A DNA stretch of 64,000 nucleotides from contig MGTV01000010.1 in assembly GCA_001799635.1 (NCBI GenBank), positions 108,228 through 172,227 on the forward strand, read 5' to 3'. The DNA comes from Elusimicrobia bacterium GWA2_62_23. Its GTDB lineage: Bacteria; Elusimicrobiota; Elusimicrobia; Elusimicrobiales; UBA9959. Position 1 is the first letter of the stretch. Each line of letters starts with the position of its first letter. Under the pieces are notes generated by a model, which saw only the letters and a program-made list of their open reading frames with translations, had not been told where the DNA came from and did no database searches. The position numbers and the translations under genes were made by a program. Of the stretch, positions 19,551 to 30,441 are shown one piece after another.

Positions 19551-20651
19551 ATGGCCACCACCCTCAGGCCGACCGTCGCCGAAATACGGCTCTCCGCCGT
19601 AAGAAAGAACCTGCAAAAATTAAAGCGCACCGCCGCGCCCGCGCGCGTGCTGTTCGTGGTGAAGGCCAACGCCTACGGCCACGGCGCCCTGCCGCTCGCG
19701 CGCCTGGCCGAGCGCGAGGCCCTGTGCTGGGGCTTCGGCGTCTCCTCCGTGGAGGAGGGCCTGGCCCTGCGCGAAAGCGGCGTCATCAGCCCGGTGCTGG
19801 TGCTGGGCAGCCTCTACCCCTTCGAAAGTTTCGTGGAAGCCATAAACGCCGACCTCATGGTGACCATCGCGAGCCTCGACGCCGCCCGCCAGGTGACGGC
19901 AGCCGCGAAGGAGCTGGGCAAGAAGGCGGTCTGCCATATCAAGCTGGAGACCGGCATGGGCCGCATAGGCGCCCGCCGACCCTCCGTGCTTAAAATTTAC
20001 GACGAGCTCGAGGGGTCCGGCGCGGTGGCGGTGGCCGGCATGTACACCCACCTTTCCAGCGCCGACACGGACCCGGCGTACACCGCCGAACAGCTCGGCT
20101 TTTTCGGCGAGACCGTGAAGGAGCTGAAAGAGCGCGGCGCGCGCGGCCTCACCTTCCACGCGGCCAACTCCTGCGCCGCGGTGAATATCCCGGCGAGCCG
20201 TTTCGACATGGTGCGCTGCGGCATCGCCGCCTACGGCCTGGCCGACGGGTTCGAGCCGGCCATGACGCTGAAGACCAAGATAGTTTTCATCAAGAACGTG
20301 CGCGAGGGCGCTTTCATCAGCTACAACAAATCCTTCAGGGCGGACCGGCCCATGAAGATAGCCACCATCCCGGCGGGCTACGGCGACGGCTACCTGCGCC
20401 GCTTCTCCAATAAGGCCGACGTGCTGATAGGCGGCAGGCGCTGCCGCGTGCTGGGCAACGTGACCATGGACATGACCATGGTGGACGTCACCGCGGTAAA
20501 GGACGCCGCCGTCGGGTCCGAGGCGGTGCTGCTCGGGCGCCAGGGAACGGAAGAGATAACCGCGCAGGAACTGGCCGACATCGCCGGCACCATAACCTAC
20601 GAGATCGTCACGCTGGTGTCGGGCCGCGTGCCGAGGGTTTACGCCGAATGA
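19551..20651 (+). CDS. alr: Alanine racemase
   Basis: FVVKANAYGHGALPLAR (PLP lysine), IPAGYGDGYLRRFSN, LGNVTMDMTMVDVT. Confidence 0.95.
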   Translation: MATTLRPTVAEIRLSAVRKNLQKLKRTAAPARVLFVVKANAYGHGALPLARLAEREALCWGFGVSSVEEGLALRESGVISPVLVLGSLYPFESFVEAINADLMVTIASLDAARQVTAAAKELGKKAVCHIKLETGMGRIGARRPSVLKIYDELEGSGAVAVAGMYTHLSSADTDPAYTAEQLGFFGETVKELKERGARGLTFHAANSCAAVNIPASRFDMVRCGIAAYGLADGFEPAMTLKTKIVFIKNVREGAFISYNKSFRADRPMKIATIPAGYGDGYLRRFSNKADVLIGGRRCRVLGNVTMDMTMVDVTAVKDAAVGSEAVLLGRQGTEEITAQELADIAGTITYEIVTLVSGRVPRVYAE

Positions 20652-21436
20652 AATATTGCGTGACGGAAAAGATAGGACATGAGTTCCTGAACCTGGCGGA
20701 AGCGCTGGGCGGGGCCGCGCTCATGATCAAGTCGGTGGCCTTCTGGCTGGTGCGGGCCAAGTTCGAGGCCGGCGAAGTGGCCAAGCAGGCCGTTAAGATC
20801 GGAGTGGATTCCTTCACGGTCACCGCGCTCACCAGTTTCTTCACCGGCATGGTGTTGGCCCTGCAGATGGGGCAGTCCACCAAGAACCTTTTTAACGAGC
20901 CCCTCTATATAGGCACCATGGTGGCCTTCTCCATGCTAAAAGAGCTGGGCCCGGTGCTGACCTCCATAGTAGTGGCCGGCCGCGCCGGCGCGGTGGTGAC
21001 GGCGGAGATAGGCACCATGCAGGTGACCGAGCAGATAGACGCGCTCTATACGCTGGGCACCAACCCCACGCGCTACCTGCTGGTGCCGCGCTACCTGGCC
21101 TTCCTCATAACCCTGCCGCTCTTGACCGTGTTCGCTGATTTTATCGGCGTGTTCGGCGGCTGCATAGTGGGCATGGTGAAGCTGGGCATTCCCAGCTCGG
21201 TGTATTTCGACGATATCCTCACCTATCTGGAGATAGGCGACTTCATGCACGGCTTCCTGAAGACCTACGTGTTCGCTTTCATGATCGCCACCGTGAGCTG
21301 CTACAAGGGGCTCAACACCCGCGGCGGGGCCGAGGGCGTGGGTAAATCCACGACGGAGGCGGTGGTGGTGAGCATGGTGCTGGTGATGGTGCTGGACTAC
21401 TTCATAAGCGCGGCGCTGGTGGCGGTGGGCATATGA
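20648..21436 (+). CDS. mlaE: MlaE-type ABC lipid transporter permease
   Basis: MlaE/YrbE signature: SFFTGMVLALQMG, LKELGPVLTSIVVAGRAGAVVTAEIGTMQVTEQIDAL. Confidence 0.93.
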   Translation: MKYCVTEKIGHEFLNLAEALGGAALMIKSVAFWLVRAKFEAGEVAKQAVKIGVDSFTVTALTSFFTGMVLALQMGQSTKNLFNEPLYIGTMVAFSMLKELGPVLTSIVVAGRAGAVVTAEIGTMQVTEQIDALYTLGTNPTRYLLVPRYLAFLITLPLLTVFADFIGVFGGCIVGMVKLGIPSSVYFDDILTYLEIGDFMHGFLKTYVFAFMIATVSCYKGLNTRGGAEGVGKSTTEAVVVSMVLVMVLDYFISAALVAVGI

Positions 21437-22173
21437 TAGAGATCCGCAACCTCGTAAAGAATTTCCCCGGCCGCAAGGTCATAGACGGCATTTCCGCCGA
21501 GATCCGGGAGGGGGAACTGTTCAGCGTGATAGGCCCGTCGGGCACCGGCAAGAGCACGTTCATAAAATGCCTCATCCGCCTGCTCCGGCCGGACTCCGGG
21601 GAGATCCTGGTGGACGGGCAGGACATCGCCGCGGCCAAGAACGAGTTCGTGCTGGCCAAGATCCGGCGCAATTTCGGCTACCTGTTCCAGGAGGGGGCAC
21701 TGTTCGACTCCCTGACCGTGCTGGAGAACGTGTCTTTCGGGCTGAAGTACCTGACCGACACCCCGAAGAGCGATTACCCGCGCATCGTCAAAGAGAAGCT
21801 TGCGCTGGTGGGCCTTAAGGACGTGGAGCACCTCAAGCCGGCGGAGCTTTCGGTGGGCATGAAGAAGCGCGTGTCGCTGGCGCGCTCCATAGCGCCCTCG
21901 CCCAAGTACATGCTTTACGACGAGCCCACCACGGGCCTGGACCCGGTGACCACGGGCATGGTGAAGGACCTCATTACGGACATGCGCGCCAAGCTGGGCA
22001 TCACGTCCATAGTGGTGACGCACGACCTGAACCTGGCCCTTGAGATCTCCAGCCGCGTGGCCATGCTCACGGGCGGCAAGTTCGTGGAAGTGGGCGAGCC
22101 CGCCAAGTTCCGCCAGTCGGAGAACCCCGCCGTGAAAGAATTCATGGAGATCTCCCACCTCTCCCGCAAATAG
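21433..22173 (+). CDS. mlaF: MlaF-type ABC transporter ATPase
   Basis: Walker A GPSGTGKSTFIK; ELSVGMKKRVSLARS; YDEPTTGLDPVTTGMV. Confidence 0.93.
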   Translation: MIEIRNLVKNFPGRKVIDGISAEIREGELFSVIGPSGTGKSTFIKCLIRLLRPDSGEILVDGQDIAAAKNEFVLAKIRRNFGYLFQEGALFDSLTVLENVSFGLKYLTDTPKSDYPRIVKEKLALVGLKDVEHLKPAELSVGMKKRVSLARSIAPSPKYMLYDEPTTGLDPVTTGMVKDLITDMRAKLGITSIVVTHDLNLALEISSRVAMLTGGKFVEVGEPAKFRQSENPAVKEFMEISHLSRK

Positions 22174-22388
22174 TCGCAGGCGTATTCCCTTCGTTCGCTG
22201 AGCGGGCGCGGCTGATAGGGCCGGCGTGCCTCCGCCGGCGTCGAACTCGCCTCGCACACAGTGCTCGGCTCAGACAGCGCCGCCGCGGCCTTAATGATAG
22301 GCCGTCCGCTCCGGCACTTGGCCCTGCGCCCTAACGCTCACTGCGGGAACACGCCTGCTCCTTAGCTCCCTGCCCCGGCCGGACCGAC

Positions 22389-22558
22389 AGGCAGGCTGAA
22401 TAACAGGAGCGGGCGGCGAGGGTATGCCTTCCGAGGGATTTCCCGGAAGCCCGAGCTTGCGCAAGCGCGAGGGCTGAGGGATAAACGGCGCGCACGGTGT
22501 GCGCGACCGTGTGCCCGAGGAAGGCATACCCTCGGCACCCGCGAACTTGCAGGCCTGC
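22389..22558 (+). ncRNA. Candidate structured RNA or palindromic intergenic element (strand presumed from the terminator)
   Basis: Perfect 16-bp stem CGAGGGTATGCCTTCC (22417-22432) / GGAAGGCATACCCTCG (22519-22534), extended by GCGGG/CCCGC (22409-22413 / 22538-22542) and an outer GGCAGGC/GCCTGCC; internal hairpins at 22448-22475 and 22486-22509; terminator follows. Confidence 0.45.
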
Positions 22559-22562
22559 CGCC

Positions 22563-22582
22563 CCCCAAAAGGGGGTTTTTTT
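22563..22582 (+). terminator. Rho-independent terminator abutting the mlaD promoter
   Basis: CCCCCaaaaGGGGGTTTTTTT. Confidence 0.8.
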
Positions 22583-22583
22583 A

Positions 22584-22589
22584 TATAAT
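22584..22589 (+). promoter_or_regulatory. Putative -10 (TATAAT) for the mlaD-like gene
   Basis: gtttttttaTATAATggatatcgtatatagatatc; directly after the terminator T-tract. Confidence 0.5.
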
Positions 22590-22626
22590 GGATATCGTAT
22601 ATAGATATCATTAGGCAAAGGACGAC

Positions 22627-23919
22627 ATGAACGGCGAGATGAAGGTCGGTTTGTTCGTGCTGGCCGGCTCTATCCTTTTCGGGGCCGCGCTTTTCCTGCT
22701 GGGGGATTATTCCTTCCAGAGCTATTATTCCATCAACGCGGAATTTTCCGACGTGGCCGGCCTGCCGGATAAAGCCACCATCAAGCTCTCCGGCGTAGAG
22801 GTGGGCAAGATAAAGCGGATCTACCTCAAGGACGACAAAGTGGTGGTGCAGCTGGCCATCCAGGAAGGCGTAAAGATCTACCGCGGCGCCAAATTTTCCG
22901 TGGGGTCCACCAGCGTCATCGGCTCCAAGTTCCTGCAGGTGGACCAGGGCTCCCCGGCCCTGGGCCGCGTAGAGGCGGGGGAGACGGTGCTGGGCGAGGA
23001 GATAGTGCCCCTCGACAAGGCCGTGGCCCGCGCCGTGGCCAGCATGGAGTCCCTCGTCATGGATATCCGCGGCGAGGGCAAGCTCGCCAAGAGCATGCAG
23101 GAGATCCTGGACAACCTGCGCGACATCACCGCCAACGTCAACGACCTGGTGGCCAACAGCCAGCCGCACGCCGAGAAAGCCATTGAGCGCATGGATTCCA
23201 TCACCGCGCGCCTGGACGAGGTGCTGCGCAAGACCGACGAGATAGTGGACAAGGTCAACCGCGGCGACGGCGTGGCCGGCGCCCTGGTGTCCGACGCCAA
23301 GATGAAGAACAACGTCAACGAGGCCATTTCCAACCTCAAGGACGCGAGCGTTTCCGTGAAGGACGCCCTGGCGCGGGTGGGCGGCTTCCGCACCTATCTC
23401 AAATGGGACTACAAGTACGAGCCGCTGGCCAAGGGCTCCAAGAGCGATTTCGGCGTAAAGATCTCCCCGCGCGAGGGCCGCTACTACTACCTCGGCGGCG
23501 CCAACATGATGAACACCAAGGACGTGGCCAAGGGCACGGACTACGAGGTGATGAACACCGTGGACGCGCGCCTTGGCTGGGAGATAAAGGCCTTCGACCT
23601 GTACGCGGGAGTCATCCGCGGCTCCGGCGGGGCCGGCGCGCGCTGGCGGCCTTTCTTCAATTCCAAGTGGGACCGGTTCACCCTGTTCGCGGAAGGCTCG
23701 GAGTTCGGCCGCAACCGGCGCATCAAGGACCGCTCCTTCAACGACCCCCGCTACGACGTGGGCGCCGAGGTGGCGGTCAACCGCTATATCTCCGCCGGCC
23801 TGCGCGTGAACGACCTGGCCGAGACCAAGCGCGTGAACTATACCACCCGGGTGCTCTTCGAGGATAAGGACATAAAGTACCTCTTCGGCTTCGCCGCTTT
23901 AGGGGCGTCCGCGAAATAA
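22627..23919 (+). CDS. mlaD: MlaD/MCE-domain protein with C-terminal beta-barrel-like region
   Basis: MCE: MKVGLFVLAGSILF...YSINAEFSDVAGLPDKATIKLSGVEVGKIKRIYL; helical stretch; C-terminal strand-rich GGFRTYLKWDYKYEP...YYYLGGANM...ARLGWEIKAFDLYAGVIRG...KYLFGFAALGA. Confidence 0.85.
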   Translation: MNGEMKVGLFVLAGSILFGAALFLLGDYSFQSYYSINAEFSDVAGLPDKATIKLSGVEVGKIKRIYLKDDKVVVQLAIQEGVKIYRGAKFSVGSTSVIGSKFLQVDQGSPALGRVEAGETVLGEEIVPLDKAVARAVASMESLVMDIRGEGKLAKSMQEILDNLRDITANVNDLVANSQPHAEKAIERMDSITARLDEVLRKTDEIVDKVNRGDGVAGALVSDAKMKNNVNEAISNLKDASVSVKDALARVGGFRTYLKWDYKYEPLAKGSKSDFGVKISPREGRYYYLGGANMMNTKDVAKGTDYEVMNTVDARLGWEIKAFDLYAGVIRGSGGAGARWRPFFNSKWDRFTLFAEGSEFGRNRRIKDRSFNDPRYDVGAEVAVNRYISAGLRVNDLAETKRVNYTTRVLFEDKDIKYLFGFAALGASAK

Positions 23920-30367: not shown

Positions 30368-30441
30368 GCGGGCGTGGTTCAATGGTAGAACGGGACCTTG
30401 CCAAGGTTCAGACGAGGGTTCGATTCCCTTCGCCCGCTCCA
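30368..30441 (+). tRNA. tRNA-Gly (GCC)
   Basis: GCGGGCGTGGTTCAATGGTAGAACGGGACCTTGCCAAGGTTCAGACGAGGGTTCGATTCCCTTCGCCCGCTCCA; 7-bp acceptor stem GCGGGCG/CGCCCGC-type, anticodon loop TTGCCAA, T-loop GGTTCGATTCC, encoded CCA. Confidence 0.95.

Follow-up and report, generated by a model that had tools for sequence, protein, structure and literature searches.

A dispersed, Y-shaped intergenic repeat of Elusimicrobia in the gap between mlaF and an MCE gene

The window analyzed here is a 64,000-nucleotide stretch of DNA from Elusimicrobia bacterium GWA2_62_23 (contig MGTV01000010.1, positions 108,228 to 172,227). Within it, mlaE (20648-21436) shares its last 4 bp with mlaF (21433-22173), and the MCE gene (22627-23919) follows mlaF after a gap of 453 bp, an arrangement that the first-pass annotation had described as an overlap followed by a gap of about 450 bp. 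That annotation had assigned the gap to one multibranched element; we find instead two separate repeats, which we call modules A and B, and an intrinsic terminator that lies outside both. The features are as follows.

22176-22358, no strand assigned: module A, a dispersed repeat bounded by the terminal inverted repeat GCAGGCGTATTCCC (22176-22189) / GGGAACACGCCTGC (22345-22358)
22390-22559, + strand: module B, Y-shaped dispersed repeat of a subtype with ends GGCAGGC / GCCTGCC, the same ends being found in its copies
22417-22432, + strand: outer stem P1, 5' arm (CGAGGGTATGCCTTCC), perfect complement of 22519-22534
22441-22481, + strand: arm P3, with stem TCCC/GGGA, internal loop GGA/GA, stem AGCCC/GGGCT, tandem GA, TT bulge and GNRA-type loop GCAA
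22486-22509, + strand: arm P4, CGGCGCGCAC-GGT-GTGCGCG-A-CCG, with a bulged A and a conserved ACGGTGT tip
22519-22534, + strand: outer stem P1, 3' arm (GGAAGGCATACCCTCG), perfect complement of 22417-22432
22562-22582, + strand: intrinsic terminator, CCCCC-AAAA-GGGGG then 7 T, outside modules A and B
22584-22609, + strand: promoter-like TATAAT (22584-22589), then GATATC-GTATATA-GATATC (22591-22609), ahead of the MCE gene

Many of the structural details proposed earlier were recovered. The perfect 16-bp stem (22417-22432/22519-22534) is present and forms part of a 29-nt arm pair that is 86% complementary, a hairpin with the sequence GCCGGCG-tgcctc-CGCCGGC lies upstream at 22220-22239, and the suggested terminator was located as a stem (22562-22575) followed by a T-run (22576-22582). 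Three hairpins had been placed inside the stem; the arms AGCCC/GGGCT (22448-22475) and CGGCGCGCAC/GTGCGCGACCG (22486-22509) hold, but GGGATTTCCC does not stand as a third hairpin, comparison of copies giving a three-way junction that carries two arms. The segment 22395-22590 has a predicted folding energy of -108.5 kcal/mol (z = -6.7; 0 of 200 shuffles folded equally well), and the fold of 22174-22400 is only marginal against shuffles (z = -2.05). An Rfam search carried out to follow up the annotation returned only a tRNA above the gathering cut-off in the window and matched no family in the mlaF-MCE gap, and a search of the locus of another copy scored only RNase P, with the Y element unmatched. 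The window contains a tRNA gene at 30368-30438 on the + strand.

No T-run directly follows the module B hairpin, the terminator at 22562-22582 being separate, and terminator-like hairpins occur in the mlaF-MCE gaps of some relatives as well (e.g., L092 and L096). The TATAAT and the GATATC-GTATATA-GATATC sequence probably constitute the MCE gene's own promoter with an operator-like dyad; TATAATGGAT(A/G)TCG...ATAGATATCAT is retained in most of the 24 relatives' gaps that were compared.

Searching the 453-bp gap against its own 2.98-Mb genome produced 35 matches in two blocks, and a covariance model built on nine copies of the Y-shaped repeat (R1) produced 32 matches, including one within module B itself (22421-22530, 101.4 bits). 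These counts bear out one of the readings first offered for the gap, that of a palindromic intergenic repeat, and we regard the identity of the sequence as a dispersed repeat as near certain. Module A has about 10 near-complete copies in the genome (85-91% identity), its ends, like those of module B, are sharp and common to the copies when these are aligned with their flanks, and it was found in 18 of 32 same-genus genomes. Modules A and B are unrelated dispersed repeats: the Y covariance model does not match module A, and the two are joined as one matching block at just one other place in the genome (C19).

The Y family, to which module B belongs, is widespread in its own lineage. R1 detected the element in each of the 32 same-genus genomes, with counts from 9 to more than 60, and found none in 28 of the 29 other genomes sampled from the same family or order; across 296 genomes of the phylum, 40 had matches, distributed over 10 genera and mostly within one family, and 256 had none. 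The family reaches high copy number in three further genera of the same family, and a second model built on 128 copies (R2) found 50 matches in one genome of genus 13; it also picked up a small number of diverged members from four more families of the class. These diverged copies have other stem sequences and the same three-way fold, and most have long, near-perfect outer stems. In a scan for the core pattern, all records whose titles name a phylum were from Elusimicrobia. The literature that we searched held no description of Elusimicrobia repeats of this kind, which is not proof of absence, and the Y family has apparently not been described before. Several contigs of metagenome-assembled genomes start or end inside Y copies (those beginning in one are L191, L197, L231, L247, L257, L261, L275, L289 and G025:C16), so the repeats are probably a cause of breaks in Elusimicrobia assemblies. 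The flanks of L017, L019, L008, L025 and L051 contain another dispersed palindromic family, GGACGGGGCATTGGTCCGCTCGCCATGACTGCAGGGAACCGTTGCGCGGTTCCCC...GGCGCTCGGACCAATGCCCCGTCC.

All copies compared share a common fold consisting of P1, a short P2, a three-way junction and the arms P3 (with internal loop GGA/GA, tandem GA, TT bulge and GNRA-type loop) and P4 (with bulged A and ACGGTGT tip). Some of these copies were reached through weak matches; their outer stems are unlike that of module B in sequence and nevertheless retain complementarity. Among 128 copies (set A3), pairing holds in 90.5% of cells, and two-sided changes are seen in 35 of 39 pairs; the covariation score is 0.500, compared with 0.039-0.099 when the partners are slid, a control that is the safer yardstick because relatedness of the copies inflates shuffle-based figures. 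In P1, 93.9% of cells are paired and every pair shows two-sided changes. Since the records for this set were picked by an arm-tip pattern, conservation of the arm tips in it is partly by construction, as applies to the higher mean conservation of loops than of stems (1.29 vs 1.01 bits). We give beside it an unselected set (A2), comprising every match in one relative's 400-kb contig (15 distinct sequences), in which 89.5% of cells pair, 31 of 39 pairs change on both sides, the score is 0.448 against 0.041-0.100 when slid, and the P4 tip pairs are again invariant or nearly so. The loop asymmetries TTA/GT, GGA/GA, TT and the bulged A are retained across copies, and most of them also outside the genus. 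Copies are thus held as folded structures in which stem sequence is free to change as long as it pairs, and loops and arm tips are fixed. The first-pass annotation had weighed many copies against a specific ncRNA and covariation in favor of an RNA; here there are many copies together with very strong covariation, a mixed outcome that leaves room for a structured role at the level of RNA or of hairpin DNA. Separately, a small insert around TGGAGCGAAGCGAC, or a related GTGGAGCG hairpin, is nested within the arms of the Y elements at L058, L043, L049, L056, L060 and L265.

The mlaF-MCE gap was compared between the window and the 24 relatives in which both genes could be placed. Most of the orthologous gaps are 75-160 bp long, lack any element and end in a conserved promoter-like TATAATGGATATCGTATATAGATATCAT (or its TATTTTATA variant), usually with a T-run before it. 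A minority contain elements, and the types differ: A plus B in the window, other Y types in G013, G024, G008, G001 and G027, and 20 nt of module A in G030. The closest relative, G025, has a shortened B at the same right-hand junction in reversed orientation (identities of 86 in the reverse alignment vs 58 in the forward one), and other gaps shared by these two genomes also differ in element type or orientation; at L049, the P1 stem has changed fast and in step between them. In G022, the mla gap (L098) contains an inserted gene for a RAYT-like Y1 transposase, close to inverted repeats with the sequence GGGGTCAGGTCTTGAATCTTGACATTT. Sequence comparison thus presents the gap in the window as an ordinary short mlaF-MCE spacer, with a T-run and conserved promoter at its end, that now holds two dispersed repeats, and indicates that a Y element can be lost, exchanged or inverted at a given site.

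Y elements are intergenic, and their placement relative to genes is far from even. In 852 kb of unselected contigs, with genes called by a codon model (~93% coverage) and genes and terminators both called by simple scripts, elements lie at 13 of 82 convergent junctions, at 9 of 573 tandem ones and at none of the 79 divergent ones (p = 1.5e-4 for convergent vs divergent). Between tandem genes, the element lies at a median distance of 35 bp from the upstream stop codon. Orientation relative to neighboring genes shows no strand bias (40 same, 32 opposite), and when two copies are adjacent, the minus copy precedes the plus copy in 14 of 14 cases and in four more in G018. An intrinsic terminator was called at 13 of 34 convergent junctions with an element, compared with 51 of 64 without one (p = 1e-4), or, counted per gene end, at 21 of 68 vs 88 of 128 (p = 5e-7). 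Convergent gaps in the unselected contigs are longer when they contain an element (median 215 bp vs 68 bp), which works against a terminator deficit. The deficit could reflect insertion into terminators instead of their replacement, and the avoidance of divergent gaps is also what would be left if harmful insertions were purged. Insertion into the loop of a terminator was considered and rejected: L045 has a terminator in G025 and an element in our genome, and the stems do not match; most element sites, moreover, lack a T-run.

Our preferred reading, which we think somewhat probable, is that the Y element is a REP/BIME-like repeat built as a three-way junction and kept as a two-way 3'-end or terminator-like hairpin. 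Transcription from either side would produce a very stable hairpin that would end the transcript or protect its 3' end and block read-through between neighboring genes, as BIME/REP units do; that the hairpin acts in these ways, and so can replace an intrinsic terminator, we place slightly below an even chance. Terminator replacement is the most specific lead to a function. At the mla locus, a good intrinsic terminator follows the element, which is therefore not needed for termination there, and the MCE gene's own conserved promoter would explain why the element is tolerated. The family would spread, and its members be exchanged or inverted in place, by some machinery. A more ambitious version, in which these are lineage-specific, orientation-independent 3'-end RNA elements selected for structure, read by some Elusimicrobia protein or acting directly on polymerase, that have widely replaced intrinsic terminators and both spread and invert between sites, seems to us unlikely.

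Alternatively, the Y element could be a selfish, non-autonomous, MITE-like element whose fold is the substrate of a hairpin-DNA transposase and whose location at 3' ends marks the survivors of purifying selection. We consider this possible, though doubtful. It would account for the common ends and many copies (terminal inverted repeats and the presence of several copies being MITE traits), the patchy occurrence in orthologous gaps, the lack of strand bias and the invariably minus-plus doublets, which resemble the two ends of a former element. The search for an enzyme, however, argues against it. Y1 transposases are encoded in 27 of 32 same-genus genomes, yet no Y element lies within 1.5 kb of any of 30 Y1 loci, and four genomes that are at least 90% complete have no Y1 and carry 31-59 elements; mobilization by a RAYT as the current driver was rejected on these grounds. 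Among the neighbors of elements, we found no recurrent gene resembling a mobilizing enzyme or partner: ABC-type ATPases, which are abundant in any case, form the largest cluster, and the others represent orthologous sites such as queA-tgt and lnt-secA. The reverse transcriptase domain RVT_1 is encoded in 9 of 32 same-genus genomes and absent from the element's own genome. That distribution also led us to reject a retron, a possibility raised by the stem-TTAGC, which is like the retron a1/branch-G region, and, given the lack of RVT_1 in this genome, a derivative of a retron msr-msd or group II intron. A candidate autonomous element between two copies 1.3 kb apart (L284) was discarded, as its interior holds AT-rich ORFs and no recognized transposase; a non-exhaustive search near copies revealed no autonomous relative with the same ends. 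The flanks of B copies show no obvious target-site duplication, and the sites compared yielded no exact empty site. On the MITE-like reading, dead copies should lose pairing, whereas ~90% of cells pair, and the shortage of terminators at element sites is not predicted unless insertion targets terminators.

We judge it improbable that the copies constitute a trans-acting or housekeeping ncRNA family, each copy being expressed and recognized by a protein through the GGA/GA and GNRA loops, ACGGTGT and the bulged A. RNA-type motifs, covariation, conserved loops and folds kept across families would fit, but dozens of randomly oriented copies abutting stop codons would not, and a scan of the region found no promoter-like site and no partner gene was seen. 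Even less credence goes to the idea that covariation arises from DNA-level quasi-palindrome repair (template switching or gene conversion between arms) instead of selection on the fold: the fast, in-step change of P1 and the in-place inversion in the mla gap are what such repair might produce, but correction of one arm by the other should erase internal loops, and the asymmetries persist. An attenuator or leader RNA specific to mla and controlling the MCE gene, as first envisaged from the position between mlaF and MCE before a terminator and promoter, can be set aside with little hesitation, because most relatives lack an element in this gap, the others vary in its type and orientation, the same element lies beside dozens of unrelated genes with no genome-wide strand bias, and an element so sporadic and variable in orthologous gaps does not belong to any control circuit of mla.

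The Y family, which has no match in Rfam, shows RNA-grade covariation and is present at tens of copies per genome in a phylum that has received little study. It offers a specific system in which a takeover of transcript 3'-end formation by repeats can be tested, with hundreds of natural variants that can be used to dissect the fold.

Like Y elements, repeats of the ERIC/IRU and Correia types are palindromic, intergenic and foldable; they are ~100-150 bp long and able to fold and act in transcripts. By their descriptions, they are set apart from Y elements as single imperfect hairpins with conserved sequence, and we know of no three-way junction among them. Integron attC sites were set aside as a match, since their variable and conserved parts are the reverse of those of the Y element, which has a variable outer stem and a conserved core. 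At the level of general description, Y elements resemble the families of stem-loop repeats compiled from 40 bacterial genomes, which are likewise intergenic and share a predicted secondary structure (PMC2267715).

REP sequences and BIMEs are dispersed extragenic palindromes, present singly or as inverted dimers near stop codons, mainly in convergent or unidirectional gaps (PMC3733652), and Y elements are also extragenic, at 3' ends and found in inverted dimers. REPs, however, are simple hairpins of 20-40 bp with GTAG or CGTC feet, with RAYTs for the GTAG types (PMC3733652, PMC2817692), whereas Y elements are three-way junctions of 110-170 nt (the common ends span 170 bp in B and 183 bp in A), have RNA-grade covariation and no link to a RAYT, and, in the aligned copies of B, end in GGCAGGC/GCCTGCC without a GTAG or CGTC foot. 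By analogy, then, the Y element would work like a BIME while standing outside the tagged REP families. By description, the nearest precedent is bcr1-bcr18 of the Bacillus cereus group, which are group-restricted intergenic repeats, some MITE-like and often transcribed in UTRs, with conserved secondary structure in bcr10 and bcr18 and a correlation between bcr3 and longer mRNA half-life (PMC3446304). The likeness, taken from that description, is to lineage-specific repeats that are often transcribed and in some cases have conserved structure (PMC3446304); the bcr repeats belong to another phylum, whereas the Y family spans several families of its class with near-complete turnover of stem sequence.
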